Shown: positions 11,808 through 57,138 of the stretch, one piece after another
Position numbering within the stretch: position 1 is the stretch's first letter
Layout of the letters: each line of letters opens with the position of its first letter
Source: Pseudogemmatithrix spongiicola
Lineage (GTDB): Bacteria; Gemmatimonadota; Gemmatimonadetes; Gemmatimonadales; Gemmatimonadaceae
Reading direction: 5' to 3'
DNA: 64,000 nt
Assembly (NCBI RefSeq): GCF_030623445.1
Contig: NZ_CP130613.1
Span: 2,232,001 to 2,296,000, forward strand
Notes under the pieces: generated by a model
What the model saw: the letters and a program-made list of their open reading frames with translations, nothing else
What the model was told of the DNA's origin: nothing
The model's database searches: none
Made by a program: the position numbers and the translations under genes

Positions 11808-11991
11808 GCGCGTTCCCAGCGGGTGGTGAGACCCCCGAAACGCGCGGGGGTGTCCAGACGGCCCAACCGACGCAAAATGCGGCGCCGGGGCCAGGTGTGC
11901 TACCCCGAAGGACGATTTGGATGGCTTCGGGGACACGATGTATCCCGAGGCCGACATGGGCGCGCGTCCTGCACCGCGTCCGGCCGCGGCA

Positions 11992-12522
11992 TCACCACGC
12001 CCCGAGGACCAGCGCGGCCGTCGCCAGCGCGATCGCCTGCCCGGCGAGCACGTCGCCGGGATAATGGACGCCGAGGCGCACGCGCGACCAGCCGACGAGG
12101 CCCGAGAGCAGCAGCAGCGGCCACGCGAAGCTCGGATACGCCACCGCGTACACCGCCGCGACGCTCATCACCGCGCAGCTGTGGCCGCTCGGGAAGGAGA
12201 ACTTGTCGGGCACCGCCACGTGCGAGTGGTCGAGCACGCGCACCGTCGGTCGCTCGCGGAGCACGCCGCGCTTGATCACCTGCACCACGAGGTGCGAGAG
12301 GGTCAGCGCCCAGGCCGCCTTGATGGCCACCAACTGGAGCGCCGCGCCGGCGAAGAGCATCGGCAGCAGCACCGCGAGGATCGTGACCCGCGCGCCGCCG
12401 ACATGCGTCAGCACCCGCCACGCGCGGGTCGCGCGGAGCGGCGTGCGGTCGCTGATGACCCAGCGCAGGAAGAGCGCGCGGTCACGGGCGTCGAGGCGGG
12501 TGATCAATGGAGCTCGCATCAT
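11992..12522 (-). CDS. PAP2-family membrane phosphatase
   Basis: 176-residue integral membrane phosphatase. All three PAP2 signatures are visible: KRGVLRERP (about 84-92), PSGHS (112-116) and SRVRLGVHYPGDV (about 144-156), with four to five hydrophobic segments. Such enzymes dephosphorylate phosphatidate, undecaprenyl diphosphate or similar lipid phosphates. The gene is divergent from a family-4 glycosyltransferase of the type that uses diacylglycerol, and the shared 268-base region has two phosphate-box-like repeats (12569-12585 and 12739-12766). Phosphatidate phosphatase in lipid remodelling is therefore the favoured role, as inference; undecaprenyl-diphosphate recycling is the alternative. 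Confidence 0.9.
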   Translation of the reverse strand: MMRAPLITRLDARDRALFLRWVISDRTPLRATRAWRVLTHVGGARVTILAVLLPMLFAGAALQLVAIKAAWALTLSHLVVQVIKRGVLRERPTVRVLDHSHVAVPDKFSFPSGHSCAVMSVAAVYAVAYPSFAWPLLLLSGLVGWSRVRLGVHYPGDVLAGQAIALATAALVLGAW

Positions 12523-12568
12523 GATGCTGAAACCTCAGGTTGGTGTGTCGCGGACACCCGTCGGCTCG

Positions 12569-12585
12569 GCAACGGCTCGGTAACG
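12569..12585 (-). promoter_or_regulatory. Candidate Pho box upstream of the PAP2 gene
   Basis: On the minus strand the site reads CGTTAC-N5-CGTTGC, the two hexamers 11 bases apart, and lies 46 bases from the PAP2 start. The plus strand shows it as an 11-base direct repeat, GGCTCGGCAAC then GGCTCGGTAAC (12563-12584). It has the same two hexamers as the site upstream of the TonB-dependent receptor (44090-44106). Confidence 0.45.
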
Positions 12586-12738
12586 TCCAGCCTACGCGGC
12601 GGCGACGGCCGGGGCGGCCTCGAAGGCCCGGACCATGGCGCGCCCGGCATGACTCTCCGGTTGGGGGACGCCTAAGGCCCAACAGATCGTCGCGGATTCG
12701 TCACGGCGCGCCCACGTTCGTCCTACGGCGCAGCCACT

Positions 12739-12766
12739 CGTGACCGCGCCGTCACACCACGGTTAC
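12739..12766 (+). promoter_or_regulatory. Candidate Pho box (three phased half-sites) upstream of the glycosyltransferase
   Basis: CGTGAC (12739-12744), CGTCAC (12750-12755) and GGTTAC (12761-12766) follow each other with an exact 11-base period. Ten bases later a -10-like GAGCTT (12777-12782) precedes the ATG at 12791. In OmpR-type phosphate promoters the box replaces the -35 and ends about ten bases before the -10, which this arrangement matches. Confidence 0.5.
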
Positions 12767-12790
12767 GAGGGCCCGAGAGCTTCCGCGCGC

Positions 12791-13846
12791 ATGCGTATCC
12801 TTTTCTGCACGGACACCTATCCCCCACAGGTCAACGGCGTCAGCGTCGTCACGGCACTGTCCGTGCAGGGCCTGCGCGAACGCGGCTGGGAGGTCGAGGT
12901 CATCGCCCCGCGGTATCCCGAGGGGGATGCCGACATCTTCGGGCCCGGCGTGAGCCACGCGCAGGTGACCAGCATTCCCTCCGTGCCGCTGCCGGGGTAT
13001 CGCGACATCCGGCTCGCGGCGCCGGCGCGCGGCAGCGTGCGCGACGTCGTCGACCGCTTCACGCCTGACATCGTGCACAGCGCCACGGAGTTCGTGATCG
13101 GGCGCATGGGCCAGCGCGCGGCGCGCGATCGCGGGCTCGTGGTCACCACCTCGTACCACACCGACTTCGCCAAGTACACGTCGTCCTACGGCGTGCCCTT
13201 CCTGCGCGGGCCGGTGCAGCGGTGGATTCGCCGCTTCCACGCCCACGCGGCGCGCATCTTCACGCCGTCCGAACCGTCGCGCCAGGACCTGCTGGCCCTC
13301 GGACTCACGGACGTCGAGGTCTGGGGCCGCGGCGTCGATGACGTGCTCTTCCACCCGTCCAAGCGCGCGCTCGCGCTGCGTCAGCGGCACTCGCTCGGCA
13401 ACGCGTTCACCTTCCTGCACGTGGGGCGCCTCGCGCCGGAAAAGGGCGTCGACGTGCTGCTCGAGGCGTTCCGCCAAGTGGAGGCCGCGCTCGGCGCCGA
13501 GCACGTGAAGTTCGTCGTCGCCGGCGCGGGGCCCAGCCTCGAGGCGCTGCGCGCGCAGGCCCCGAAGAACGTCACCTTTCTCGGCAACCTCGATCGCACG
13601 CGTGAACTTCCGGCGCTCTACGCCAGCGCCGATGCCTTCCTCTTCGCGAGCACCACCGAGACGCTGGGCCTCGTCGTCCTCGAGGCGATGGCGTCAGGCC
13701 TGCCGGTGATCGCGACGCCCGCCGGCGGTGTGGCCGATAACCTGCGCGATGGCGCGCGGCACTGGGCCGAGCGCCGCACCTGGGCGATGGAGCTCGATCG
13801 CCTCGACGCGTCCTACCGCGAGCTGCTCAGGCCAGCGGCAAGGTAA
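12791..13846 (+). CDS. Family-4 (GT4) glycosyltransferase with a shortened C-terminal domain
   Basis: 351-residue glycosyltransferase similar in layout to SqdX and MgtA-type glycolipid or mannosyl transferases: FCTDTYPPQVNGVSVV (5-20), TTSYHTDFAKYTSSYG (119-134), VGRLAPEKGVDVLLEAF (211-227) and the nucleotide-sugar E-x7-E motif ETLGLVVLE (Glu290, Glu298). After PAGGVADNLRDG (309-321) the sequence passes straight to ARHWAERRTW; family members carry about 40-45 residues here (NGLLVPPGD and a helix), so an in-frame deletion near base 13750 is likely. Start at 12791 because homology begins there. Its 3' end overlaps the convergent histidine kinase by 20 bases. Confidence 0.87.
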   Translation: MRILFCTDTYPPQVNGVSVVTALSVQGLRERGWEVEVIAPRYPEGDADIFGPGVSHAQVTSIPSVPLPGYRDIRLAAPARGSVRDVVDRFTPDIVHSATEFVIGRMGQRAARDRGLVVTTSYHTDFAKYTSSYGVPFLRGPVQRWIRRFHAHAARIFTPSEPSRQDLLALGLTDVEVWGRGVDDVLFHPSKRALALRQRHSLGNAFTFLHVGRLAPEKGVDVLLEAFRQVEAALGAEHVKFVVAGAGPSLEALRAQAPKNVTFLGNLDRTRELPALYASADAFLFASTTETLGLVVLEAMASGLPVIATPAGGVADNLRDGARHWAERRTWAMELDRLDASYRELLRPAAR

Positions 13847-15668
13847 AGCGGAAGCTGCTGCCCTTGCCCACGATGCTCTCGGCCCAGAGCGTGCCGCCAT
13901 GGGCCTCGACGATGCCGCGGGCGATGGCCAAGCCGAGGCCCGTGCCGCCCTTGGGCGCGTTGCGCCGCACGGTCCAGTAGCGCTCGAAGATCCGCGGGAG
14001 CTCGGAGGGCGGGATCCCCGCGCCGTTGTCGTGCACCGCGACTTCGACGTGGCCTCCGACGCGACGGGCCCCGACACGCACGCTGCCCCCGCGGTCCGTG
14101 AACCGCAGCGCGTTCCCCAAGAGGTTGGCGAGCACCTGCACGACGCGTTGCTCGTCGCCGATGACCTCCGGCAGCGGCGACGGCTCGTCCAGCGCCAGCG
14201 CGACGCCGCGCTCGGCGGCATCGCGCCGGAAGAGTTCCATGGCCTGCGCCAGTACCGGCGGAAGGGCCAAGGCACGGCGCTCGATGTTGAGCCGCCCCAG
14301 CTCGATGCTCGCCACGTCCAGCAGGTCGCGGATCATCCGCTGGGTGAGATCGGTCGAGTCGGCGATGGTCGTCACCAGCGCGCGACGCTCGGTGTCATCG
14401 GCCGGAGTCGCCGCCAGGAGCGCGCGGGCGCACATGCCGATGGCCGAGATGGGATTGCGCAGGTCGTGCGACACCACGCCGAGCGCATGGTCCCGCGCGA
14501 TCGTCGCTTGCTGCGCCGTCTCGTAGAGGCGCGCGTTGTCGAGCGCGAATGCGGCGCGCAGCGCCAGCTCCTTGGCGCTCGTGATCTCGGCGTCGCTGAA
14601 CGCGCGGCCTGCCGACGTGCGGAAGATCGAGAGCACGCCCAGCACGTGTTCGCGCGCCACCAACGGCAGCAGGAGCACGGCGCGCACCTGCATCGCCTTG
14701 GCGCGCGCGAACTCCTCCGCCGAGTCCGTATGCGCCTCAAGCCACTCGTCGTCCACGTTTGGCACGTGCTCCACCTGCGCCCGCCGGAACACGTCCACCA
14801 CGCGTGACGGCGAATCCATGTCGATGCGCTGCTCGGCCATCTGCGCGAGCAGGGCGGCCAGCGCGGGGTCCGATGGCGTCGAGACGACGCGTCGCAGGCT
14901 CCCGCCGCCGGCCTGCACGTCCAGCACCGCGCCGTCCGCCAGCCAGCCGACGGGCAGCTGCACGATGGTCCGCTCGGTCCCCGCCACTTCCAGCGTCTCA
15001 CCCAGCACCGCCACGGCATGCGTCAGCCGCTGCTGCGCCTCCTCGCGCCGGTGCCGATCCGTCACGTCGCGCAGCAGCACGGTGTAGATGCGCTCGCCCG
15101 AGGCGAGCACCAGCTTGGAGATCGACGCCTCGGCGGGAAACTCGCTGCCGTCGCGCCGAAGCCCGGAGATGGCGCGGCGCTCACCCATCTGCCGGGAGCG
15201 CTCGGCGGCCATGCCGAATCCGTGCACGAACTGCCCGTGGCCTTTCCGGTGCCGCTCGGGGAGCAAGAAGGCCAGCTCCCGGCCCAGCGCCTCCGACGCG
15301 GACCAGCCGAAGATACGTTCGGCGCCGGAGTTGAAGTGCACGATGCGTTGCCGATCGTCCACGGAGATGATGGCGTCAGCGGCGATCTCGAGGATGCCCG
15401 AGAATTTCGCTTCGCTGGCGCGCAGCGCTGCCTCGACGGCCGCGCGGCGCGTGATGTCGTCATGCAGGCTGGCGTAGGCCAGCCACGCGAGCACCACGGC
15501 GAGGATCATCAGGATGATCACCAGCGCCTGCGCGAGACGCAGCGCCGGATCGTCCATGCCCCCGGCAAAGGCGCGGCGCGTCGCGGCGAGCGTCACGCTC
15601 CCCACGAGCAGCAGCGCCACCACCCCGGCGCCGACGATCAGGCGCAGCTTGGATTGCGTCGAGACCAT
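13827..15668 (-). CDS. Membrane sensor histidine kinase with PAS and GAF domains
   Basis: 613-residue kinase. Two membrane segments (about residues 10-28 and 44-66) with almost no periplasmic loop are followed by a PAS domain (about 80-205, FSGILEIAADAIISVDDRQRIVHFN), a GAF domain (about 220-375), a HisKA helix with phospho-acceptor His in VVSHDLRNPIS (about 395) and a HATPase with N box (NLLGNALRFTD) and G boxes (DNGAGIPPSELPRIFERYW, GGTGLGLAIARGIVEAHGG). It probably phosphorylates the NarL-type regulator encoded 72 bases upstream on the same strand. Signal unknown. Confidence 0.95.
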   Translation of the reverse strand: MVSTQSKLRLIVGAGVVALLLVGSVTLAATRRAFAGGMDDPALRLAQALVIILMILAVVLAWLAYASLHDDITRRAAVEAALRASEAKFSGILEIAADAIISVDDRQRIVHFNSGAERIFGWSASEALGRELAFLLPERHRKGHGQFVHGFGMAAERSRQMGERRAISGLRRDGSEFPAEASISKLVLASGERIYTVLLRDVTDRHRREEAQQRLTHAVAVLGETLEVAGTERTIVQLPVGWLADGAVLDVQAGGGSLRRVVSTPSDPALAALLAQMAEQRIDMDSPSRVVDVFRRAQVEHVPNVDDEWLEAHTDSAEEFARAKAMQVRAVLLLPLVAREHVLGVLSIFRTSAGRAFSDAEITSAKELALRAAFALDNARLYETAQQATIARDHALGVVSHDLRNPISAIGMCARALLAATPADDTERRALVTTIADSTDLTQRMIRDLLDVASIELGRLNIERRALALPPVLAQAMELFRRDAAERGVALALDEPSPLPEVIGDEQRVVQVLANLLGNALRFTDRGGSVRVGARRVGGHVEVAVHDNGAGIPPSELPRIFERYWTVRRNAPKGGTGLGLAIARGIVEAHGGTLWAESIVGKGSSFRFTLPLA

Positions 15669-15740
15669 CAGGCGGAATATGCGGACGGCGCGCGCCCGAT
15701 GGTACTCGGGACGCGCGCCGTCGCTCGGGGGGAACCGCGC

Positions 15741-16400
15741 TCAGGCGTGCAGCAGGCCGAGCCGCAGGGCGAACTGCACGTACTCGTGCCGGTGACTCAG
15801 GCCCAGCTTGTCCTGGATGCGCTGCTTGTACGTGTCCACCGTCTTCGGCGAGATGAACAGCCGTTCGCCGATCTCCGGCGCCGAGTACCCCTGGGCCGTC
15901 AGTCGCAGGACATCGCGCTCGCGCTCGGTGAGCTTCTCGTAGCGCGTGCGGTCCTCGTGCATCGGATCCTTGCGCTGATACCCCTTGGCGAGGATCCGCG
16001 CCGCCTCCGCCCGCACGTAGATCTCGCCGCGCGCGACCGTCCGCACCGCGTCGAGCAGCTCGCGGTCGGGGGCCGTCTTCGGCAGGAAGCCGCTCGCGCC
16101 AGCCTCGAGCATCGGCACCAAGTACTCCTCCTCCGGATGCATCGTGAGGATCAGCACCTTGGACGGAATGCCCTTCTCGATGAGCATCTTGGTGGCCTGC
16201 CCGCCATCGACTTCACCGATGGAGAGATCCATGATCACCACGTGAGGCTTCAGGCGCTCGGCCAGCGCGACCGCCTCGGGTCCGCTGGACGCCTCACCGA
16301 CGACGTGCATATCCTTCGCCGCCCCAATCACTGCCTTGAGGCCGGCGCGGACCACGCTGTGGTCATCGGCGAGGATTACGCGAATCAGGTCGTCGCTCAT
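15741..16400 (-). CDS. NarL/FixJ-family response regulator
   Basis: 219-residue two-domain regulator: receiver with acidic pair Asp12-Asp13, phospho-acceptor Asp58 (VIMDLS) and KT pair in FLPKTAPD, then a LuxR-type helix-turn-helix (LTERERDVLRLTAQGYSAPEIGERLFISPKTVDTYKQRI). The ATG at 16400 gives the normal family start MSDDLIRVILADDH. It lies upstream of the histidine kinase gene in the same direction and is divergent from the asparaginase gene; a 15-base palindrome between them is a candidate operator. Confidence 0.95.
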   Translation of the reverse strand: MSDDLIRVILADDHSVVRAGLKAVIGAAKDMHVVGEASSGPEAVALAERLKPHVVIMDLSIGEVDGGQATKMLIEKGIPSKVLILTMHPEEEYLVPMLEAGASGFLPKTAPDRELLDAVRTVARGEIYVRAEAARILAKGYQRKDPMHEDRTRYEKLTERERDVLRLTAQGYSAPEIGERLFISPKTVDTYKQRIQDKLGLSHRHEYVQFALRLGLLHA

Positions 16401-16458
16401 GGCGTGTAGTCTGGGGCCGGGCGCCGGCAGGGCCAATAAAGCATAGGCGGATTTTGAC

Positions 16459-41026: not shown

Positions 41027-41653
41027 GTGCGCCCGCTGATCATCGGCGTCGCCGGCGGCTCCGGATCGGGCAAGACCACCGTGGCCCGACGCGTCGCGGA
41101 GGCCCTCGACGGCGCGAAGGTCGCGTTCCTCGACATGGACGCGTACTACCGCGACCACCACGCCCTCACCCACGACGAGCTGCGCCTGCTCAACTGGGAT
41201 CACCCGGATGCCTTTGACCTTGACCTGCTCGCCGCGCACCTCGGCCGACTGGCCGATGGGCATGGCATCGAGAAGCCGGTCTACGACTTTGTCCGCCACC
41301 GACGCGCGCCGGAGTCGCAGCGCATCGAACCGGCCGACGTGATCGTCATCGACGGCATCCTCCTGCTCGTCGAGGAGCGCATCCGCGCACGCCTCGACAT
41401 CAAGGTCTTCGTGGACACCGACGCCGACATCCGGCTCATCCGCCGCATCCGCCGCGACATGGCGCGGCGCGGCCGGCCGCTCGAAGAGATCCTCGATCAG
41501 TACCTGACGACCGTGCAGCCGATGCATCTCCAGTTCGTCGAGCCCAGCAAGCGCTACGCCGATCTCATCATCCCGCGGGGTGGGGAGAACGCGGTCGCCA
41601 TCGACCTGCTGCTCGCGGCCATCAACCGCCGTCTCGCCGGGGCGCGCGCGTGA
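41027..41653 (+). CDS. udk: Uridine kinase
   Basis: 208-residue P-loop kinase phosphorylating uridine and cytidine. Walker A GGSGSGKTT (10-18), DMDAYYRDH, NWDHPDAFDLDLL and YDFVRHRR are standard; VIVIDGILLL is the Walker B region. GTG at 41027 is chosen because homology starts with RPLIIGVAGGSGSGKT; the longer in-frame extension has no conserved sequence. Its stop overlaps the phoB start by four bases (GTGA), an odd partner for a two-component system but close to the nucleotidase operon. Confidence 0.95.
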   Translation: MRPLIIGVAGGSGSGKTTVARRVAEALDGAKVAFLDMDAYYRDHHALTHDELRLLNWDHPDAFDLDLLAAHLGRLADGHGIEKPVYDFVRHRRAPESQRIEPADVIVIDGILLLVEERIRARLDIKVFVDTDADIRLIRRIRRDMARRGRPLEEILDQYLTTVQPMHLQFVEPSKRYADLIIPRGGENAVAIDLLLAAINRRLAGARA

Positions 41654-42360
41654 CCGCACCGGCCGCCGGCGGAGAGCGCATCCTCGTCGTCGACGACGAA
41701 CCGGACATCGTTGCGCTCGTCGTCTACCACTTGGCGAAGGCGGGCTATCGCGTCTCCTCGGCGGCCACCGGGACCGATGCCCTGCAGCTGGCCAAGCGTG
41801 ACCGGCCCTCGCTGGTCGTGCTCGACCTCATGCTCCCGAGCATGAGCGGCTTCGACGTCCTCGCGAAGCTCCGCGAGGACAGCAATACCGCGAACGTCGC
41901 CGTGCTCATGCTCACGGCCCGCAAGGAAGAGCCGGATCGCATCCGCGGGCTGGAGCTCGGTGCCGACGACTACATCACGAAGCCGTTCTCGCCGCAGGAA
42001 CTCGTGCTCCGGGTAGGCGCGATTCTCCGTCGCGTCTCCAGCACCGGCGCGCCCACCGATGTGCTGCAGATCGGCCCGATCCGCGTGGACCGCTCGGCCC
42101 ACCGCGTGCTCGTGAACGAGCACGAGATCGAGCTCACGCCCACGGAATACAAGCTGCTGCTCACGCTGGCCGAGCGGCGGGGCCGCGTGCAGTCCCGCGC
42201 GCACCTGCTCGAGACGGTGTGGGACGCCGCGCCCGACATCCAGACGCGCACCGTGGACATGCACATCCAGCGCCTGCGCACCAAGCTGCACCCGGCGGGC
42301 GACCTGATCGAGACCGTGCGCGGCTTCGGCTACCGGCTCAAGGGCGGCAAGGACGCGTGA
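41650..42360 (+). CDS. phoB: PhoB-like response regulator (OmpR family)
   Basis: 236-residue regulator. Receiver with Asp15/Asp16, phospho-acceptor Asp59 (VVLDLMLPSMSGFDVL) and Lys in ADDYITKPFSPQEL; C-terminal winged helix (about 140-235) with ELTPTEYKLLLTLAERRGRVQSRAHLLETVW and RTVDMHIQRLRTKL. GTGA overlaps link it to udk before and to the kinase after. Adjacent phosphate genes make PhoB the best identity. It is the natural binder of the 11-base repeats described for this window. Confidence 0.92.
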   Translation: MTAPAAGGERILVVDDEPDIVALVVYHLAKAGYRVSSAATGTDALQLAKRDRPSLVVLDLMLPSMSGFDVLAKLREDSNTANVAVLMLTARKEEPDRIRGLELGADDYITKPFSPQELVLRVGAILRRVSSTGAPTDVLQIGPIRVDRSAHRVLVNEHEIELTPTEYKLLLTLAERRGRVQSRAHLLETVWDAAPDIQTRTVDMHIQRLRTKLHPAGDLIETVRGFGYRLKGGKDA

Positions 42361-44060
42361 GGCTCACGCAACGGCTGCTCCTCGGCGCGTTCATCGTCGT
42401 CGGGGTCCTCGCGGTCGTCATGGTCACGATCGTCGACCGCCAGCTCACCAACCGACTGCGCGACGACGCGACGACCTTCCTCGAGCGTGAGGCGGAACTC
42501 GTCGGCGTGCTGTGGCAGCGCGACGCCCAGGCCCCGGACTCGCTGGCCAATGCCATCGGCGCCGCGCTCGGTCGGCGCGTCACGCTCGTGGCGCCCGACG
42601 GCGTAGTCATCGGCGATTCGGAGTTCGATGGCGATGCGCTGCGTGGCCTCCAGAACCACGCCACGCGACCCGAGGTTGCCGAGGCCGTGGCGAGCGGCCT
42701 GGGTTCATCGCGGCGCCCGTCGCCCTCGACGGGCGACCAGGAGCTCTACGTCGCGGTGCGCGTGCCCGCGATGGGCGTCGCCCGCGTCTCGCTGCCGACC
42801 GCCAGCATCGACGCGGTCACCCGCGACGCGCGCTCGGACATCCTCGGGGCGGCGCTGTTCGCCCTGCTCGCCGCCCTCGGGATCGCGTTCCTGTTCTCGC
42901 GGTCGGTCTCGCGGCCGGTGGAAGAGCTGCGCGACGTTGCGGCCGCGCTCGCCGACGGCGATCTCGCGCGGCGGCCGACGCTTAAGGCCCCGGGGGAAGT
43001 CGGCGAGCTCGCCGACGCGCTCAAGGAGCTCGCGGAGCAGCTGTCCGCCCGCTTGCGCGCGCTCGAGGCGGACGAAACGCTGCTCGTCCAGCTGACCGAG
43101 TCGCTCAACGAGGGCGTGATCGCCGTGGACGCGACACGCATGGTCGTGCGCATCAACGAGACGGCCCGGCGCCTCCTCGGCTCGCGCGCACCCCTGCCCT
43201 TCCCCGTCGAAGACTTGCCACGCGACCTCGCGCTGCGCGAGGCGCTGCAGGGCGCGTTCGACGGCACGGTCACGGAGGGCGTTGAGGTCGTCATCACCGG
43301 CCGCACACTCAACATCACCGCGCGCCCGCTCAGCGGCGGCGGCGCCGTACTCGCCCTCTTCGACCTCACGCGCGTGCGCCGGCTCGAGGCGGTGCGCCGC
43401 GATTTCGTGGCCAACGTGTCGCACGAGCTGCGCACACCGCTCACGATCGTCGGGGGCTTCGCCGAGACCCTGGTCGAGGAAGACGTCCCGGCCGAGACGC
43501 GTCGAGGCTTCGCCGAGCGCATCCTCGGCAACACGCGCCGCATGCAGCGCATCGTGGACGACCTGCTCGACCTGTCGCGCATCGAGTCCGGCGGCTGGGT
43601 GCCGAATCCGCAGGCGATCGACCTCGCGTCGGTCGCGACCGACGTGTTCGCCGCGGCACGGGACGCCGCGGACCGCAAGGGATTGGCGCTCGACGCGGAG
43701 TTCCCCGCCGACGCCGCGTCCGTGTATGCCGACAGCACCGCGTTGCGTCAGGTGCTCGGCAACCTCGTGGACAACGCGGTGCGGCATACCGCCAGCGGGC
43801 GCGTGACGCTCTTCTCGCGGCGGCACGAGCGCGGCGTGATCGTCGGCGTGCGCGACACCGGCGTGGGGATCCCGAAGGAGCACCTGCCGCGCATCTTCGA
43901 GCGCTTCTACCGCGTGGACCCGGGGCGGGCCCGGGAGGAAGGCGGTACCGGCCTCGGGCTCGCCATCGTGAAGCACTTGGTCGAGGCGCACGGCGGCCGC
44001 GTGAAGGCCGAATCCGAGGTCGGCGTGGGTTCGTCGATCACGGCCTTCTTCCCAGACTGA
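42357..44060 (+). CDS. phoR: PhoR-like sensor histidine kinase
   Basis: 567-residue kinase: membrane segment (residues 8-27), periplasmic domain (about 30-155), second membrane segment (about 163-183), HAMP (about 184-235), PAS (about 245-340), HisKA with phospho-acceptor His in VSHELRTPLTIVGGFAETL and HATPase (NLVDNAVRHT, DTGVGIPKEHLPRIFERFYRVD, GTGLGLAIVKHLVEAHGG). PhoR of this form, with an extracytoplasmic loop, is usual in Firmicutes and related groups. Start GTG overlaps the phoB stop. Confidence 0.92.
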   Translation: MRLTQRLLLGAFIVVGVLAVVMVTIVDRQLTNRLRDDATTFLEREAELVGVLWQRDAQAPDSLANAIGAALGRRVTLVAPDGVVIGDSEFDGDALRGLQNHATRPEVAEAVASGLGSSRRPSPSTGDQELYVAVRVPAMGVARVSLPTASIDAVTRDARSDILGAALFALLAALGIAFLFSRSVSRPVEELRDVAAALADGDLARRPTLKAPGEVGELADALKELAEQLSARLRALEADETLLVQLTESLNEGVIAVDATRMVVRINETARRLLGSRAPLPFPVEDLPRDLALREALQGAFDGTVTEGVEVVITGRTLNITARPLSGGGAVLALFDLTRVRRLEAVRRDFVANVSHELRTPLTIVGGFAETLVEEDVPAETRRGFAERILGNTRRMQRIVDDLLDLSRIESGGWVPNPQAIDLASVATDVFAAARDAADRKGLALDAEFPADAASVYADSTALRQVLGNLVDNAVRHTASGRVTLFSRRHERGVIVGVRDTGVGIPKEHLPRIFERFYRVDPGRAREEGGTGLGLAIVKHLVEAHGGRVKAESEVGVGSSITAFFPD

Positions 44061-44089: not shown

Positions 44090-44117
44090 CGTTACACAAC
44101 CGTTGCGTTGCTGTCGT
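44090..44117 (+). promoter_or_regulatory. Candidate Pho box upstream of the TonB-dependent receptor
   Basis: CGTTAC (44090-44095) and CGTTGC (44101-44106) with an 11-base period, followed by a weaker third unit TGTCGT (44112-44117). The receptor ATG is 88 bases further on. The two hexamers equal those of the PAP2 site. Confidence 0.5.
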
Positions 44118-44205: not shown

Positions 44206-46989
44206 ATGCGCCGTGTACTGCTTGCTGTCCTTGCTGCACTCACCCTGCCGGTCGCCGGACTCTCGGCGCAGGCCGCTCCGGCGGCCCCGGCACCGACCAC
44301 GGGCCGCATCGTCGGCCGCGTGCTGGACGCCTCGAGTGGCGCCGGCCTCGCGGCAGTCGGCATCCAGGTGGTCGGCACGTCGATCGGCACCCAGTCCGGA
44401 GTCGACGGCCGCTTCACCATCGTCGGCGTTCCCGCCGGCACGGTCACGCTGAGCGTGCGCCGCATCGGCTACGCGCCCAAGACCATCACCGGCCTGTTCC
44501 TCGAGGCGGGCAAGACGGTCGAGCAGGACGTGACGCTCGCCGAAGCCTCGCTCCAGATCGCCGCCCAGGTCGTGACGGCCTCGGCCGAGCGCGGCTCGGT
44601 GAACGAGGCGCTCGACGCGCAGAAGAACTCCGTGAACGTGGTCAGCTCGGTGACGGCCGAGCAGATCGCCAAGAGCCCGGACGGTGATGCGGCGCAGGCC
44701 GTGGGCCGCGTGTCCGGCGTGAGCGTGCAGGACGGCAAGTACGTGTTCGTGCGCGGCCTCGGCGACCGCTACACGCAGACCTCGCTGAACGGCGCGCGCA
44801 TCCCGAGCCCGGAGCCCGAGAAGAAGCAGGTGCCGCTCGACCTGTTCCCGACGGGTCTGCTGCAGACCATCACCACGATCAAGACCTTCACGCCGGACCA
44901 GCCGGGCGACTTCTCCGGCGCGACGGTGGACATCCAGACGCGCGAGTTCCCGGCGCGCCGCACCTGGGCGCTGAGCAGCAGCACGGGCGGCAGCGACGCC
45001 GTGGTCGGCCGCTTCCTGCCGATGCAGGGCCGCGTGGGCGGTGACCTGTTCGCCGCGGGCGCCGCGAACCGCGCGCTGCCCGGTTTCATCCAGGGCTTCG
45101 GCAACTTCGCCAGCAGCTTCCCGACGCAGGGCGACTTCAACCGCATGGTGGGCGACTTCCGCAACTCGTGGTCGCCGCGTGGTGGCGAGGGCGGCCTGAA
45201 CGGCTCGACCTCCATCTCGGTGGGCGGCAACGATCCGGTCTTCGGCAAGAACGTCGGCTACCTGGTCAGCGGCACCTACTCGTACGGCCAGGAAGCGAAG
45301 CTCGACCAGGTGCGCGCGCTGGCGCTGGCCCAGACGGGCGCGACGCCCTCGGCGGTGGACCGCTTCGAAGGCCTGACGGGCCGCTCGACGGTGCTCTGGG
45401 GCGGCCTCGCGAACTTCAGCACGCTGCTCGGCCAGCGCACGCGGATCGCGCTGAACAACACCTACAACCGCACGATGGACTCCGAGGGCCGGCAGGAGCG
45501 CGGCTTCTCCGAGAACCTCGGCATCCCGCTGGTCATCACGCGCCAGAAGTACGTGGAGCGCGCCGTGTACTCCTCGCAGCTCCTGCTGCAGAGCGACGTG
45601 ACGGCCAACCAGAAGCTCGAGTTGGCGCTCACCACCACGGGCGTGCGCCGTGACGAGCCGGACCGCAGCGAATTCGTGCAGGGCGTGTTCACGGATGCCG
45701 GGACGGGCATGCCGACCACGCAGTGGCTGTCGTCGTCGAACGAGGGCGCCGTGCGCACGTTCAGCGACCTCGGCGAGAACGCCTACGAGGCGCGCGGCCA
45801 CTACCGGATCCAGTTCGGCGAAGTGGGTCGCCAGCTCGCCCTCAAGGTGGGCGGCCTCGGCCGCTACGCCCGCCGCGACGCCAACAGCACCGCCTACAGC
45901 ATCAACGCCTCGGGCCTCTCGGCGGCGGAGCGTCAGCTGCGTCCGGAGCTGCTGTTCGACGGCCGCTACACGGGTGCCTCGGATGCGGTGTGGCGCGTGA
46001 ACGCCATCGGCGTCGGCGGTGCCTACACGGCGAATGACTACCTCGGCGCCGGCTTCGCGATGGTCGAGAAGGACTTCGGCCCGCGCTGGCAGCTCATCAC
46101 CGGTGCGCGCGTCGAGTACTCTGACGTGCTCGTCAAGGCGGACCCGACCATCGGCGCCCGCACCAGCACCAACCCGACGTTCCTCGACGTGCTGCCGGCG
46201 CTGGCCGTCACGTTCCGTCCGTCGGAGCGCACCAACCTGCGCATGTCGGCGTCGCAGACGGTGTCGCGTCCGGAGTACCGTGAGCTCGCGCCCATCCAGT
46301 ACCGCGAAGTCATCGGCTTCGACAACGTGATCGGCAACCCGAACCTGCAGCGCGCGTTGATCCAGAACTACGACCTGCGCTGGGAGTTCTATCCGGGTGC
46401 TGGCGAGGTCGTGAGCCTCGCGGTGTTCGCCAAGCGCTTCACGGATCCGATCGAGCGCGTGTACATCGGCTCCAGCGGCACGCGCATCATCACCTTCGTG
46501 AACGCCGAGGGCGCCGACAACTACGGCCTCGAGCTCGAGGGGCGCAAGAACCTCGACTTCATCGCCGCGGCGCTGGCCAACTTCTCGGTGAGCGCCAACG
46601 CCACCGTGATGAACTCGGAGATCCGCATCAACCGCAACAGCGGCTCGGTGACCAACGCCAACCGCGCGATGGTGGGCCAGGCGCCGTACATGTTCAACAC
46701 CGGCCTGACCTGGTCGTCGCCGATGGGCACGACCAGCGCCTCGCTGCTCTACAATGTCGTGGGCGAGCGCATCACCGAAGCCGGTGAGATCCCGCTGCCC
46801 GACGTGAAGGAGTTGGCGCGCCACATCGTGGACTTCTCGCTGCGCCTGCCCTTGGGTGAGCGCGTGACGGCCCGCATGGACGCGCGCAACCTGCTCGACG
46901 CGCCCTACCGCATCATGCAGGGCCCGGTGACGCGCGAGTCGTATCGCGTCGGCCGCAACTTCTCGATCGGCCTGAGCTGGCGCCCGTAA
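44206..46989 (+). CDS. TonB-dependent outer-membrane receptor
   Basis: 927-residue receptor. Signal peptide (1-22, ending LSAQ), a carboxypeptidase-like regulatory beta domain (about 32-105, GRIVGRVLDASSGAGLAAVGIQVVGTSIGTQSG), plug (about 110-225, with NGARIPSPEPEKKQVPLDLFPTGLL) and a 22-strand type barrel ending NFSIGLSWRP, with a C-terminal aromatic-Arg-Pro. The first domain marks the Bacteroidota/Gemmatimonadota style of receptor. No TonB box is obvious. Position just after phoBR, with a candidate Pho box, suggests a phosphorus-containing substrate; the sequence itself does not tell which. A terminator hairpin follows. Confidence 0.93.
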   Translation: MRRVLLAVLAALTLPVAGLSAQAAPAAPAPTTGRIVGRVLDASSGAGLAAVGIQVVGTSIGTQSGVDGRFTIVGVPAGTVTLSVRRIGYAPKTITGLFLEAGKTVEQDVTLAEASLQIAAQVVTASAERGSVNEALDAQKNSVNVVSSVTAEQIAKSPDGDAAQAVGRVSGVSVQDGKYVFVRGLGDRYTQTSLNGARIPSPEPEKKQVPLDLFPTGLLQTITTIKTFTPDQPGDFSGATVDIQTREFPARRTWALSSSTGGSDAVVGRFLPMQGRVGGDLFAAGAANRALPGFIQGFGNFASSFPTQGDFNRMVGDFRNSWSPRGGEGGLNGSTSISVGGNDPVFGKNVGYLVSGTYSYGQEAKLDQVRALALAQTGATPSAVDRFEGLTGRSTVLWGGLANFSTLLGQRTRIALNNTYNRTMDSEGRQERGFSENLGIPLVITRQKYVERAVYSSQLLLQSDVTANQKLELALTTTGVRRDEPDRSEFVQGVFTDAGTGMPTTQWLSSSNEGAVRTFSDLGENAYEARGHYRIQFGEVGRQLALKVGGLGRYARRDANSTAYSINASGLSAAERQLRPELLFDGRYTGASDAVWRVNAIGVGGAYTANDYLGAGFAMVEKDFGPRWQLITGARVEYSDVLVKADPTIGARTSTNPTFLDVLPALAVTFRPSERTNLRMSASQTVSRPEYRELAPIQYREVIGFDNVIGNPNLQRALIQNYDLRWEFYPGAGEVVSLAVFAKRFTDPIERVYIGSSGTRIITFVNAEGADNYGLELEGRKNLDFIAAALANFSVSANATVMNSEIRINRNSGSVTNANRAMVGQAPYMFNTGLTWSSPMGTTSASLLYNVVGERITEAGEIPLPDVKELARHIVDFSLRLPLGERVTARMDARNLLDAPYRIMQGPVTRESYRVGRNFSIGLSWRP

Positions 46990-47030
46990 GCGCGAGTGAA
47001 GACCCCGACGGCACCGTGACGGGGCCGTGA

Positions 47031-47068
47031 CGAAAACCCCGCCGTGCAGAGACACGGCGGGGTTTTCG
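47031..47068. terminator. Bidirectional-looking terminator after the TonB receptor
   Basis: A perfect 16-bp stem, CGAAAACCCCGCCGTG with CACGGCGGGGTTTTCG, around a six-base loop. Its stem starts with AAAA and ends with TTTT, so it can work in both directions. It separates the receptor from the next lipoprotein gene, which needs its own promoter or read-through. Confidence 0.85.
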
Positions 47069-47098
47069 TTGGGTATCACCCTCACCGTGGATGCTTCC

Positions 47099-48502
47099 AT
47101 GATCCGACCGAAGTCGATGCGCGCCCTCGGGGCCGCGCTGCTTGCCACCGCCGCGCTCAGCGCGTGCAACAACGACGAAGACCCCATCGGTCCGGTGGAG
47201 CCGGGCGCCGCCGTCATCAGCGCCGACATCACGACGAACCGCACGCTGTCGAAGGACACCGTGTACACCCTGCAGGGCTTCATCAAGGTCACCAACGGCG
47301 CCACGCTGACCATCCCGGCCGGCACGCGCATCGTCGGCGACTTCGAGACCGTCGGTTCCGCGCTGTTCGTCACCCGCGGTGCGCGCCTCGTCGCGAACGG
47401 CACGGCCGCCGAGCCGATCGTGTTCACGTCGGAACGTCCCGTCGGCTCGCGCCAGGCCGGTGACTGGGGCGGCTTGATCATCATCGGCAACGCGACCTCC
47501 AACCGTTCGGGCACCGTGGTGCTCGAGGGCACGGGCACCGGCCCGTCGAACCCGCAGCAGGTCTACAGCGGCGGCACGACGGACACGGACAACAGCGGCA
47601 CCCTGCGCTACGTGCGTGTCGAGTTCGCCGGCTACGCCACGGCGACGGACGCCGAGCTGAACTCGTTCACGTTCGCGGCCGTGGGCTCGGGCACGACGAT
47701 GGAATACCTCCAGGTCATGAACGGCCTCGATGACTCCTTCGAGTGGTTCGGCGGCACGGTCGACGGCAAGTACTTCGTCTCGTACGAGTCGGGTGACGAT
47801 CACTTCGACATGTCGGAAGGCTACCGCGGTCGCCTGCAGTACCTGATCGCCTACCAGAGCCGCCTCGTCATCCCGCGTCCGGGCGCCGGCAACGCGTCCA
47901 GCGATCCGCAGGGCATCGAGAACGACGGATGCGCGGGTGCCGGCTGCGACAACGGCCAGAACTCGACGCCGCTCACCACGCCGGTCGTCGCGAACTTCAC
48001 GCTGGTCGGCCCGGGTGCCGGCACCGACGTGGATCCGACCTCGGGGGGCTACGCGATGGTCCTCCGCCGCGGCACGGGCGGCTACTACGTGAACGGCCTC
48101 GTGGCCCGCTGGCCGAAGGCCGCGCTCTCGATCCGCGACGCCGCCACGCTCACGCGCGTCACGGAAGGCACGTTCGACGCCCGCAACATCCTCGCCCTCG
48201 AGACGCCGGCGCTGTTCCACACGAATTCGCTCGCGGACTCCACGGCCCGGAACCTTGTCCGCAACACCACGGCCACCGCGGCGCAGCAGTTCACCACGCT
48301 GACGCTGCCGGCGACCAGCGCGGCCTCGTTCGACTGGACGCCGCAGGCGGGCTCGCTCGCCGCGACCGGTGGCTTGGCGACCTTCACCGGCAACATGGCG
48401 ACGGCCGCCGGCACCTTCGTGACGGGCACCACCTACCGCGGCGCAGCGGCCCCGGGCGGCACGAAGTGGTGGACCGGCTGGACCGTGTACTACGTGAACT
48501 AA
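47099..48502 (+). CDS. Beta-rich lipoprotein, partner of the TonB receptor
   Basis: 467-residue lipoprotein with lipobox LSAC (about Cys21). After an acidic linker (NNDEDPIGP) the sequence is almost all short beta segments: GATLTIPAGTRIVGDFETVG, GDWGGLIIIGNAT, NSGTLRYVRVEFAGY, GTTMEYLQVMNGLDDSFEWFGGTVDGKYFVSYESGDDHFD. The pattern suggests a right-handed parallel beta helix. Similar proteins, as I recall, lie beside TonB-dependent receptors in Bacteroidota and are functionally unassigned. Surface or periplasmic substrate capture for the receptor is the likely role. Start at the ATG before MIRPKSMRALG. Confidence 0.8.
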   Translation: MIRPKSMRALGAALLATAALSACNNDEDPIGPVEPGAAVISADITTNRTLSKDTVYTLQGFIKVTNGATLTIPAGTRIVGDFETVGSALFVTRGARLVANGTAAEPIVFTSERPVGSRQAGDWGGLIIIGNATSNRSGTVVLEGTGTGPSNPQQVYSGGTTDTDNSGTLRYVRVEFAGYATATDAELNSFTFAAVGSGTTMEYLQVMNGLDDSFEWFGGTVDGKYFVSYESGDDHFDMSEGYRGRLQYLIAYQSRLVIPRPGAGNASSDPQGIENDGCAGAGCDNGQNSTPLTTPVVANFTLVGPGAGTDVDPTSGGYAMVLRRGTGGYYVNGLVARWPKAALSIRDAATLTRVTEGTFDARNILALETPALFHTNSLADSTARNLVRNTTATAAQQFTTLTLPATSAASFDWTPQAGSLAATGGLATFTGNMATAAGTFVTGTTYRGAAAPGGTKWWTGWTVYYVN

Positions 48503-49192: not shown

Positions 49193-50287
49193 ATGGACCC
49201 CCGACCGCCGCGTCGCAACGTCGGACTGCTGCAGGGCGCCGCCCTGCTCTGGCTGGGGCTGCTCGTGGGCTTCGCGGTCGGCATCGAGTACATCCGCTCG
49301 CGACCCGTGCCGCCGACGCCGTCGGGCGGCATCGACCTCGTCGGCGCGGGTGCCACCTTCCCGTATCCGCTGTATCGCCGCTGGTTCGCCGACTACGGCC
49401 GCGAGACGGGCGTGCGCATCAACTACTTCTCGGTGGGCAGTGCCGAAGGCATCCGCATGCTCCTCGACGGCAACGCGGACTTCGGCGCCTCTGACCGCCC
49501 GCTCACGGCGGACGAACGCGCGCGGGCGCGCTGCGGCCCCGTCGAGATCCCCATGGTGCTCGGGGCGGTCGCGGTGGCGTATCGCCTGAGCGACCTGACG
49601 ACGCCGCTGCGTCTCGACGCGGACGTCCTCTCGGACATCCTCGCCGGCCGCATCCGCCGTTGGGACGACGCGGCGCTGCGGGCGCTGAATCCCGGCGTCG
49701 CCCTGCCCCCGCTGCCGATCACGGTTGTGCGCCGGGCCCGCATCACCGGGACCAGCGCCATGTTCGCGCGGTATCTCGCCTCGAGCGCGCGGGCGTCGGG
49801 CGACGCCGCGCTGACCGCGGCCGGCGCCCAGGTCGAGGGCAATGAAGGCGTGACGGCGGCGATCAGCGCGCAGCCGGGCGCGCTTGGCATCGTCGAGTAC
49901 ACCTACGCGATGCAGGCGAACCTCGACGTCGCGGCGCTCCGCAACGTCGCCGGCGCCTTCGTGCTACCGAGCCCGGCGTCCATCGCCGCGGCGGCCCGTG
50001 AGCGACTCGATGCGTCGAGCATCGACACCACACTCGGTGTCATCGGCGCGCGGGATGCCGTGGCCTATCCGGTGGTCGGCGTCACCCGCATCGTGGCCGA
50101 TGCGGCGCTTGGCGACACGGCGCGTGCCGCGCACTTCCTGGCCTTCGCCCGCTGGGCCCTCGGCGATGGCGCCGCGGTCGCGGCGGAAGTAGGCTATGCA
50201 GCGTTGCCCGACGCGATCGCCGACGCCCAGCGCCGACGACTCGCCGCCCTGCGGCCCGGCCGCTGCCCCTCGCCCCGCACGCCGTGA
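49193..50287 (+). CDS. pstS: PstS-like phosphate-binding protein with membrane anchor
   Basis: 364-residue periplasmic binding protein. The phosphate-site motifs are conserved: GAGATFPYPLYRRWFADY, GSAEGIRMLLDGNADFGASDRPLT, and GTSAMFARYL. GNEGVTAAISAQPGALGIVEYTYA is the C-terminal hallmark. Residues 11-30 form a hydrophobic segment without a lipobox or clear cleavage site, so the protein is probably anchored in the inner membrane rather than free. PstC, PstA and PstB are not in the window; the only inner-membrane phosphate carrier here is PiT. GTGA overlap with the following ppx gene. Confidence 0.88.
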   Translation: MDPRPPRRNVGLLQGAALLWLGLLVGFAVGIEYIRSRPVPPTPSGGIDLVGAGATFPYPLYRRWFADYGRETGVRINYFSVGSAEGIRMLLDGNADFGASDRPLTADERARARCGPVEIPMVLGAVAVAYRLSDLTTPLRLDADVLSDILAGRIRRWDDAALRALNPGVALPPLPITVVRRARITGTSAMFARYLASSARASGDAALTAAGAQVEGNEGVTAAISAQPGALGIVEYTYAMQANLDVAALRNVAGAFVLPSPASIAAAARERLDASSIDTTLGVIGARDAVAYPVVGVTRIVADAALGDTARAAHFLAFARWALGDGAAVAAEVGYAALPDAIADAQRRRLAALRPGRCPSPRTP

Positions 50288-55350: not shown

Positions 55351-56382
55351 TCAGCCGCGGAACGCGGCGACGAGCAGGTACGAAATCGCCGCGACCGCCG
55401 CCGAGGCGGGGATCGTGATGATCCAGGCCCAGATCATGCGGCTGGCCACGCCCCAGCGCACCGCCGAGAGGCGCTGCGTCGCGCCCACGCCGACGATGGC
55501 GCCCGAGATCGTGTGCGTCGTCGACACCGGGATGCCGAGGAACGTCGCAAGGAAGATTGCCGACGCGCCACCCGTCTCGGCGCAGAACCCGCCGATGGGC
55601 CGCAGCTTCGTGACGCGCGAGCCCAGCGTGTGCACGATGCGCCAACCGCCCATCAGCGTGCCCATCGCGATGGCGAAGTGCGCGCCGAGCTTGATCCAGA
55701 ACGGGATCTCGTCGCCCGACGAGATGTAGAAGTGCCGGAGGAAGCCGGTCTCGTCGACGAAGTACATCTGCCCCGCGACGAGCAGCGACACGATGATGCC
55801 CATGGTCTTCTGGGCGTCGTTGGCGCCGTGCGACAGCGAGAACAGGGCCGAACTGGTGATCTGCATGCCGCGGAACAGCGGCTCCATCTTGGCCGGCCGC
55901 TGGTTGCGGAAGAGCCACATCGTGCCGACCATCAGCGCCCAGCCCGCCGCCATGCCGACCAGCGGCGAGACCACGATGAAGATGATGGTCTTGGTCCACC
56001 CCGACGCGATGATCGCCGGGAAGCCCGCCTTGGTGATCGCCGCGCCCGCGTAGCCACCGATGAGCGCGTGCGACGAGCTCGAGGGGATGCCGTACCACCA
56101 GGTGATGAGGTTCCAGGTGATCGCGCCGAGCAGGCCGGCGAGGATCACGTCCGGATTCACCACGGCGAGGTCGATCATGCCCTTGCCGATCGTCTTCGCG
56201 ACCTTGGTGTCGAAGAGGAACAGCGCGAGGAAGTTGAACGTCGCGGCCCACACGACGGCCGTGAACGGGCTGAGCACCCGCGTCCCCACGATGGTGGCGA
56301 TGGAATTCGCCGAGTCGTGGAAGCCGTTGATGTAGTCGAAGATGAACGCCACCAGGACGATGACGAGGATATACCAGACCAC
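55351..56382 (-). CDS. pit: PiT-family low-affinity phosphate transporter
   Basis: 343-residue inner-membrane carrier. Both copies of the PiT signature are visible: DYINGFHDSANSIATIVGTRVL near the N-terminus and SHGANDAQKTMGII in the middle, with PSSSSHALIGGYAG and PVSTTHTISGAIVGVG in the repeat halves. GTG at 56382 is chosen so that the first membrane segment starts the protein; a longer form would run into the DUF47 gene. Eight bases behind the PhoU-like gene and four before ppk. Confidence 0.95.
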   Translation of the reverse strand: MVWYILVIVLVAFIFDYINGFHDSANSIATIVGTRVLSPFTAVVWAATFNFLALFLFDTKVAKTIGKGMIDLAVVNPDVILAGLLGAITWNLITWWYGIPSSSSHALIGGYAGAAITKAGFPAIIASGWTKTIIFIVVSPLVGMAAGWALMVGTMWLFRNQRPAKMEPLFRGMQITSSALFSLSHGANDAQKTMGIIVSLLVAGQMYFVDETGFLRHFYISSGDEIPFWIKLGAHFAIAMGTLMGGWRIVHTLGSRVTKLRPIGGFCAETGGASAIFLATFLGIPVSTTHTISGAIVGVGATQRLSAVRWGVASRMIWAWIITIPASAAVAAISYLLVAAFRG

Positions 56383-56390
56383 GGCGACGC

Positions 56391-57002
56391 TCAGGAGTTC
56401 TTGAGGGAGATGCTCTCCAGCACGTTCGCGACGTCCTCGCACTCATCCACGGCGTGCTCGAGGTTGTCGTAGATCTCCTTCCACTTGATCACCTCGAGCG
56501 GATCCGGCTTGCCGGCGAAGAGATCGGACACGGCCTTGCCGTACAGCGCGTCGGCCTTCTCCTCGAGGACCTTCACCTGGCGGGCCGCCTTGTGCACGGC
56601 CTGCGGGTTGCGGATCTCCTTCACGCCCTGCGCGAGCACGGCGCAGGTCTCGACCAGCACGTCCATCATCTCGATGGCCGGGGCGCGGCGCTCGTTGATG
56701 TGGAACATCGTGGCGCGACGGGCGGTGCCGTCCATGAGGTCCACGACGTTGTCGAGGCGGTTGGCCAGGAGGTGGATGTCCTCGCGGTCGAGCGGCGTCA
56801 CGAACGAGCGATCGATGCGCTGCATGATCTCGTAGGTGAGGGCGTCGGCCGCGTGCTCTTCCGCCTTGACCTTGGCCACGAGCTCGTCGAGCCGCTCGGG
56901 ATGCTGGAAGAGTTCGCGCAGGAAGGCGGCCGAGGAGTTCAGGCGCGCCGAGAGCTGATCGAAGAGGCCGAAAAAGCCTTCGTCCTTCGGCAGGAATCTC
57001 AC
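56391..57002 (-). CDS. PhoU-like DUF47 regulator of PiT
   Basis: 203-residue all-helical protein (FFGLFDQLSARLNSSAAFLRELF; EEHAADALTYEIMQRIDRSFVTPLDREDIHLLANRLDNVVDLMDG) of the DUF47/PhoU-like group, which usually accompanies PiT and is thought to regulate it. GTG start at 57002. First gene of the operon phoU-like, pit, ppk (and maybe the porin). A palindromic candidate Pho box with -10-like hexamer lies about 105 bases upstream. Confidence 0.92.
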   Translation of the reverse strand: MRFLPKDEGFFGLFDQLSARLNSSAAFLRELFQHPERLDELVAKVKAEEHAADALTYEIMQRIDRSFVTPLDREDIHLLANRLDNVVDLMDGTARRATMFHINERRAPAIEMMDVLVETCAVLAQGVKEIRNPQAVHKAARQVKVLEEKADALYGKAVSDLFAGKPDPLEVIKWKEIYDNLEHAVDECEDVANVLESISLKNS

Positions 57003-57106: not shown

Positions 57107-57138
57107 TATTTAGGGGCCTCCGTAACAGAACTGTTACG
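57107..57138 (-). promoter_or_regulatory. Candidate Pho promoter of the phoU-pit-ppk operon
   Basis: CGTAACAG-AA-CTGTTACG (57121-57138) is a perfect inverted repeat and also contains the 11-base-period pair CGTAAC-N5-TGTTAC on either strand. On the minus strand it is followed after nine bases by TAAATA (57112-57107), a good -10. The arrangement matches a PhoB-activated promoter without a -35. Confidence 0.5.

Follow-up and report, generated by a model that had tools for sequence, protein, structure and literature searches.

Does the divergent pair of genes for a PAP2-type phosphatase and a GT4 glycosyltransferase in Pseudogemmatithrix spongiicola form a lipid-remodeling module under phosphate control? 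The initial annotation had proposed that the pair makes diacylglycerol and glycosylates it, and that it belongs to the regulon of a phosphate island in the same window. Here, the window is the whole stretch of DNA that was analyzed, 64,000 nt corresponding to positions 2232001-2296000 of the genome.

The gene pair and its Pho-box-like elements

Open reading frames, Pfam matches, and half-site positions confirmed the layout described before: two divergent genes separated by a gap of 268 bp (12523-12790), with a box facing each of them.

11992-12522, minus strand: PAP2-superfamily lipid phosphatase gene, 176 aa, apparently intact (PF01569, E 8.6e-20)
12558-12585, minus strand: PAP2-facing Pho-box-like element, CGTTAC-N5-CGTTGC-N5-CGACGG, 11-bp phase
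12739-12766, plus strand: GT4-facing Pho-box-like element, CGTGAC (12739), CGTCAC (12750), and GGTTAC (12761), exact 11-bp phase
12791-13846, plus strand: GT4 glycosyltransferase gene, here GT4-A, 351 aa (PF13439 and PF13692/PF00534 by Pfam)

The PF01569 match of the phosphatase exceeds the curated cut-off in the Pfam search, and inspection of the sequence found the motifs KX6RP, PSGH, and SRX5HX3D, which place the protein in the PAP2 superfamily. It is 81-85% identical to its counterparts in the three nearest relatives, and its dN/dS resembles that of neighbor genes. GT4-A has a GT-B fold, an intact EX7E motif, and PF13439 plus PF00534/PF13692 domains and is thus assigned to the GT4 glycosyltransferases. 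Its orthologs in relatives are 385 aa long and 74-79% identical to the window protein.

The three half-sites of the GT4-facing box were exactly as first read, and they are conserved. The 150 bp before GT4-A were compared among 26 genomes, the window genome and those of 25 relatives. At least seven of the eight fixed bases were present at 11-bp spacing in 24 genomes, versus 2.2 in shuffles; other spacings were matched in 0-7 genomes, except 22 bp (two periods), which was matched in 25. A perfect match occurred in 2 of 53 control upstream regions, both belonging to pst-type genes. The GAGCTT that had been pointed out before the ATG is present, but it shows no sign of conservation upstream of GT4-A in relatives.

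Furthermore, a PWM trained on pstS sites only (consensus CGTKAC per 11 bp) scored 4.6-17.4 bits on the GT4-A upstream regions of 25 of the 26 genomes (95% level of the null for 150 bp, 1.8). The spacers before PAP2, in the window and in the three nearest relatives, scored 12.5-17.8 bits (99% of the 71-bp null, 6.1). The PAP2-facing box of the window itself reached 15.1 bits, compared with 99% null values of 6.1 (71 bp) and 8.1 (120 bp); it is kept in the three nearest relatives (L031, L032, and L033) between the PAP2 start and the stop codon of a phosphodiesterase gene described below. Since both boxes were recognized by the pstS-trained model and are conserved in relatives, we conclude from these comparisons that both are real.

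The pattern GTNAC-N6-GTNAC occurs four times in the window, versus 0.56 expected, and 0 of 100 shuffles gave four. Two of these sites make up the GT4-facing box and the other two (47016 and 57122) lie in the phosphate island. Perfect triple GTNAC sites in 11-bp phase are found at three places in the 3.26-Mb genome, one being the GT4-facing box. Another (G000:C1:905633-905659, L197) is upstream of a gene for a 375-aa probable secreted protein, and the third (G000:C1:1730185-1730211, L198) overlaps the start of a B12-binding mutase-type gene with a carboxyltransferase-type gene alongside. The boxes detected in the phosphate island were as follows.

44090-44111, plus strand: 11-bp repeat box before the TonB-receptor gene at 44206 (17.4 bits)
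47016-47031, plus strand: GTGAC-N6-GTGAC box upstream of an island gene (near 47100), found by pattern count and PWM
57122-57137, minus strand: GTAAC-N6-GTTAC box upstream of PhoU_div (56391-57002) and Pit (55351-56442), found by pattern count and, before PhoU_div, by PWM

A PhoB-type response regulator and a histidine kinase are encoded beside the island boxes, at 41650-44060. Within the island, the PWM found no box before phoB, the pstS-like gene, ppk, or the porin gene. All eight fixed bases were present in 12 of 26 pstS upstream regions, versus 0.19 in shuffles, and about half of these regions were without a box. In line with the regulon membership proposed initially, the 11-bp repeat of the gene pair recurs before pstS in relatives and before PhoU_div/Pit and the TonB-receptor gene in the window. 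As expected for a PhoB regulon, the gene pair and the pst genes of this lineage have direct repeats of 11-bp phase in common. Given the recognition by the pstS-trained model, the conservation, the rarity of the triple site, and the pst/pho neighbors of the locus in relatives, the assignment of PAP2 and GT4-A to the same predicted phosphate regulon as the phosphate-uptake genes is well supported.

At 47016-47075 of the island, the Pho-box-like pair directly precedes a strong terminator-like hairpin (AAAACCCCGCCGTG...CACGGCGGGGTTTT), and the 491-aa ORF downstream of the box and hairpin has no Pfam match. The gene at 49193-50287, just before ppx, encodes a PF12849 protein that is the only match of the genome to the pstS model (TIGR02136, below cut-off); it has no recognizable box of its own.

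A four-gene cluster in relatives and its remains in the window

In the nearest relatives, GT4-A is divergent from a phosphodiesterase gene (PF01663), which is followed by PAP2 and a second glycosyltransferase gene, GT4-B. Among 16 genomes of the same genus, the phosphodiesterase, GT4-A, and GT4-B co-occur in the same nine and are clearly absent from the other seven, some of which are incomplete. The window genome is the only same-genus genome that has GT4-A and lacks both the phosphodiesterase and GT4-B. In G036, G061, and G077, only the divergent PAP2/GT4-A pair, without the phosphodiesterase, was found. The cluster adjoins pstB-like ABC genes, phoU, and ppx in L042, pit and phoU_div in L041, two pstS genes and phoB in L040 and L044, and ppk and ppx in L047 (neighbor ORFs without a Pfam scan were named from their sequence). 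In addition, pstS lies at most 10 kb from GT4-A in 7 of the 23 genomes in which both were located, representing five genera (nominal p about 1e-10, a value that ignores relatedness). Three places in the window mark what was lost.

11958-11991, no strand: site of the missing GT4-B (about 370-412 aa, downstream of PAP2 in relatives), no trace
12592-12702, minus strand: pseudogene tail, the last 37 codons and stop of the deleted PF01663 phosphodiesterase (tblastn and DNA alignment)
13741-13753, plus strand: junction of an in-frame 102-bp (34-residue) deletion in GT4-A, between VADNLRD and GARHWAERR

When intact relatives were used as tblastn queries, 12592-12702 was matched at E 1.4e-5 to 8e-3, with identity reaching 62% in an alignment of 24 residues, and the genome search for the phosphodiesterase gave E 6e-6 at the same place. 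The minus strand here encodes DESATICWALGVPQPESHAGRAMVRAFEAAPAVAAA and a stop; its counterpart in the relative L031 is LDVPATVCWALGIPQPESFAGQPLTMAFETAALVAAA and a stop. In relatives, the deleted gene lies between PAP2 and GT4-A. Much of the region shared by the two genes is therefore pseudogene; the PAP2 box follows closely on its stop codon, and the GT4 box lies right past the point of deletion. DNA alignment revealed nothing left of GT4-B in the spacer from PAP2 to the following gene of the window.

The 34 residues missing from GT4-A are present in all 20 relatives of the protein alignment, and DNA alignment shows the deletion as well. As judged from the secondary structure of the model, beta6' and alpha6', a strand and a helix, have been removed from the C-terminal Rossmann domain. 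This domain is thus incomplete in the window protein, and the PF00534 match ends at 136 of 172. The junction DNA (CTGCGCGATGGC) resembles both ends of the segment missing from the window, as seen in relatives, which suggests that the deletion arose by recombination between short repeats. A candidate for a second natural C-terminal truncation, the GT4-A of G061, was rejected: it is frameshifted in the same C-terminal region (L044:6700-6832) of a metagenome assembly. Since the conserved tail continues in another frame, the frameshift may be an assembly error.

We conclude from the comparison with relatives that the locus is the remains of a predicted phosphate-regulated cluster, from which this genome has lost the phosphodiesterase and GT4-B and in which GT4-A is shortened, while PAP2 and both boxes are retained. 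With these losses, the pair may be unable in this species to produce diacylglycerol and glycosylate it, as had been proposed. The reading as a module was right in kind and wrong in completeness; the pair is a remainder that may be partly defunct.

Enzyme chemistry and comparison with known systems

We infer the chemistry of the cluster from the protein families and the gene neighborhood. In the phosphodiesterase of relatives, D15, T51, D156/D158, H162, D203, H204, and H214/H218 are invariant; these are superfamily-type residues, with a putative metal-binding role by analogy with the alkaline phosphatase superfamily. In a fold search, Xac NPP was closest, and LtaS/LtaP and the alkaline sphingomyelinase ENPP7 followed further down. 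LtaS and LtaP act on phosphatidylglycerol, and ENPP7 is a phospholipase-C-type enzyme. By analogy, the PF01663 phosphodiesterase could take on the release of diacylglycerol that PlcP performs in other bacteria, and PAP2 could dephosphorylate phosphatidate. The NCBIfam matches of PAP2 are all far below cut-off and are led by undecaprenyl-diphosphatases (52.5 bits), ahead of phosphatidate-type models. GT4-A reaches no NCBIfam cut-off (best, 148 bits versus 480) and is weakly similar to many polysaccharide GT4 models. The N-acetylglucosaminyl-phosphatidylglycerol synthase model NF053787 is the top model for GT4-A and GT4-B, but their scores of 148-167 bits are far under its cut-off of 480. Neither OlsB-type PF13444 nor BtaA-type PF11899 had a match in the window genome.

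Lipid remodeling by PlcP and Agt under phosphate starvation has been described for Phaeobacter, SAR11, Agrobacterium, and P. aeruginosa (PA3219-PA3218 and PA0842) (PMC4796936, PMC8528852). Agt2 (PA0842) of P. aeruginosa is a DAG-glucuronosyltransferase that produces glucuronosyl-DAG under phosphate stress (PMC8528852). Like this system, the Gemmatimonadota cluster pairs one or more GT4s under Pho-box control, here predicted, with a lipid phosphoesterase, and its complete form has two GT4s. Unlike it, the cluster has a PF01663 phosphodiesterase and PAP2 in place of PlcP; moreover, it belongs to another phylum, has another box spelling, and is eroded in the window genome. Calcineurin-like PlcP had no match in the window genome, and relatives gave weak matches only (best, 45.9 bits; mostly around 30% identical), outside the cluster, which are probably other calcineurin-like enzymes.

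A GT4-A profile identified a probable Agt2 ortholog as the best match in each Pseudomonas genome (E 1e-79 to 5e-84), and in G100 the second best match was the PlcP-adjacent Agt1. We take the best match to be the Agt2/PA0842 group on account of its neighbors Pta, glutathione peroxidase, and an OYE-type oxidoreductase. GT4-A is related to Agt, with the Agt2 identity resting on this gene neighborhood, and the Pseudomonas Agt2 (PA0842) group appears to comprise its closest characterized relatives. GT4-A resembles SqdX in its GT4 fold and in the type of its N-terminal motif. Both GT4-A and GT4-B fell in the same broad region of the tree as the Chloroflexota protein L180, which presumably resembles SqdX, with the deep branching weakly defined. 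In contrast to SqdX, however, they form clades of their own, and no sqdB partner was seen near either gene.

A PAP2 gene is adjacent to a GT4-A homolog across Gemmatimonadota and also in Bacillaceae, Paenibacillus, and Betaproteobacteria. This adjacency across phyla and the Agt2-like homologs agree with the lipid-type function initially suggested for PAP2 and GT4, although the pair is not a complete module. The homologs in the Bacillaceae and Paenibacillus pairs are 32-38% identical to GT4-A and are encoded on the same strand as PAP2 or divergently, but no phosphodiesterase is immediately adjacent. TTHACA-type repeats were detected in 4 of 13 Bacillaceae pairs, where a Bacillus-type phosphate box is suggestive only. 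Same-strand pairs were seen in Bacillaceae (L112, L113, L116, L121, L128-L130, L142, L149, L152, and L156), divergent pairs in Paenibacillus (L114, L118, L119, L124-L126, L131, L138, and L164), and further pairs in L134, L148, L158, and L166. A discussion of this widespread pair in distant phyla was not found in the literature searched.

Proposed pathway and competing explanations

We consider it likely that the locus is a Pho-regulated lipid-remodeling cluster, PlcP-Agt-like in function, with a different candidate phospholipase C, and eroded in this species. At low phosphate, PhoB-P would bind the boxes. The phospholipase-C-like phosphodiesterase, with or without PAP2 acting on phosphatidate, would free diacylglycerol from phospholipid, and GT4-A and GT4-B would add one or two sugars to it, yielding glycolipids that contain no phosphorus and making phosphate available. 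Of this pathway, the window species would retain nothing or, at most, the addition of a single sugar to diacylglycerol supplied by PAP2. Against this reading, the GT4 and PAP2 families are broad, the phosphodiesterase is dispensable where the PAP2/GT4-A pair stands alone (G036, G061, and G077), and a box is missing before about half of the pstS genes. The structure prediction and dN/dS of the shortened GT4-A, given below, would allow for an enzyme that still works.

A more specific version is put forward tentatively, as somewhat short of probable: the cluster would be Gemmatimonadota's own, with the PF01663 phosphodiesterase replacing PlcP alongside PAP2, two GT4s, and a lineage-specific Pho box, and the window species would represent a natural partial loss. 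Gemmatimonadota are common in soil and live there with little phosphate. In the Gemmatimonadota literature searched, pst/pho genes are described and a lipid replacement pathway is not; the search returned no expression or lipid data for the phylum and nothing relevant on its glycolipids or on PF01663 enzymes in lipid remodeling. If true, the phylum would gain such a pathway and a marker gene, together with a testable conserved Pho box and a non-PlcP candidate phospholipase C. The window genome would be a natural experiment in which the promoter boxes and PAP2 were kept and most enzymes were lost.

Alternatively, the two remaining genes could be a working, streamlined module under PhoB control, in which the shortened GT4-A glycosylates DAG that PAP2 produces from phosphatidate. 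Both boxes are present, the PAP2 motifs are intact, and the same divergent pair exists in G036, G061, and G077. GT4-A has no stop or frameshift and retains its EX7E and RLAPEKG motifs. AlphaFold2 modeled the 351-aa protein with a mean pLDDT of 91, the C-terminal domain lacking its last strand-helix unit, and pairwise dN/dS with the window gene was 0.19-0.25, close to the values of its neighbors. Relaxed selection on the shortened gene was thus not seen, a result that is uninformative if the deletion is recent. Since the fold is confident and dN/dS is not relaxed, the shortened GT4-A may still work. However, the deleted unit is kept in all aligned relatives, the same lineage has also lost two partner genes, dN/dS would not register a loss that is recent, and AlphaFold2 judges deletions poorly. 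We lean toward an impaired GT4-A and regard a working two-gene module as possible, if doubtful.

The leading PAP2 matches to undecaprenyl-diphosphatases, below cut-off as they are, and the weak resemblance of GT4-A to polysaccharide models would fit an envelope role, with PAP2 as an undecaprenyl-diphosphate phosphatase, GT4-A as a polysaccharide glycosyltransferase, and phosphate control coupling envelope synthesis to supply. This is unlikely: around the loci of relatives no polysaccharide gene cluster is evident, the conserved partner is an alkaline-phosphatase-superfamily phosphodiesterase, the box is common to pstS, and the nearest characterized relatives point to lipid glycosylation. It is quite unlikely, too, that the boxes belong to another OmpR-type regulator with an 11-bp repeat and not to PhoB. 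The half-site CGTKAC differs from CTGTCAT of E. coli, and the pstS upstream regions without the motif would be accounted for, but the motif stands before pstS, PhoU_div/Pit, and more island genes, beside the PhoB-type regulator and histidine kinase, and the only control matches were pst-type genes. It is very improbable that faulty assembly explains the absence of the 102 bp and of the two genes: the genome is a single 3.26-Mb contig (100% complete), an imperfect short repeat marks the site of the deletion, which keeps the frame exactly, and what is left of the phosphodiesterase gene is a diverged remnant, not a clean cut. The eroded Pho-regulated cluster is the reading we retain.

At its 3' end, GT4-A overlaps by 20 bp with a convergent gene for a PAS-GAF-type histidine kinase (13827-16436). 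A LuxR-type response regulator follows this kinase, and the arrangement is kept beside the cluster in several same-genus genomes.
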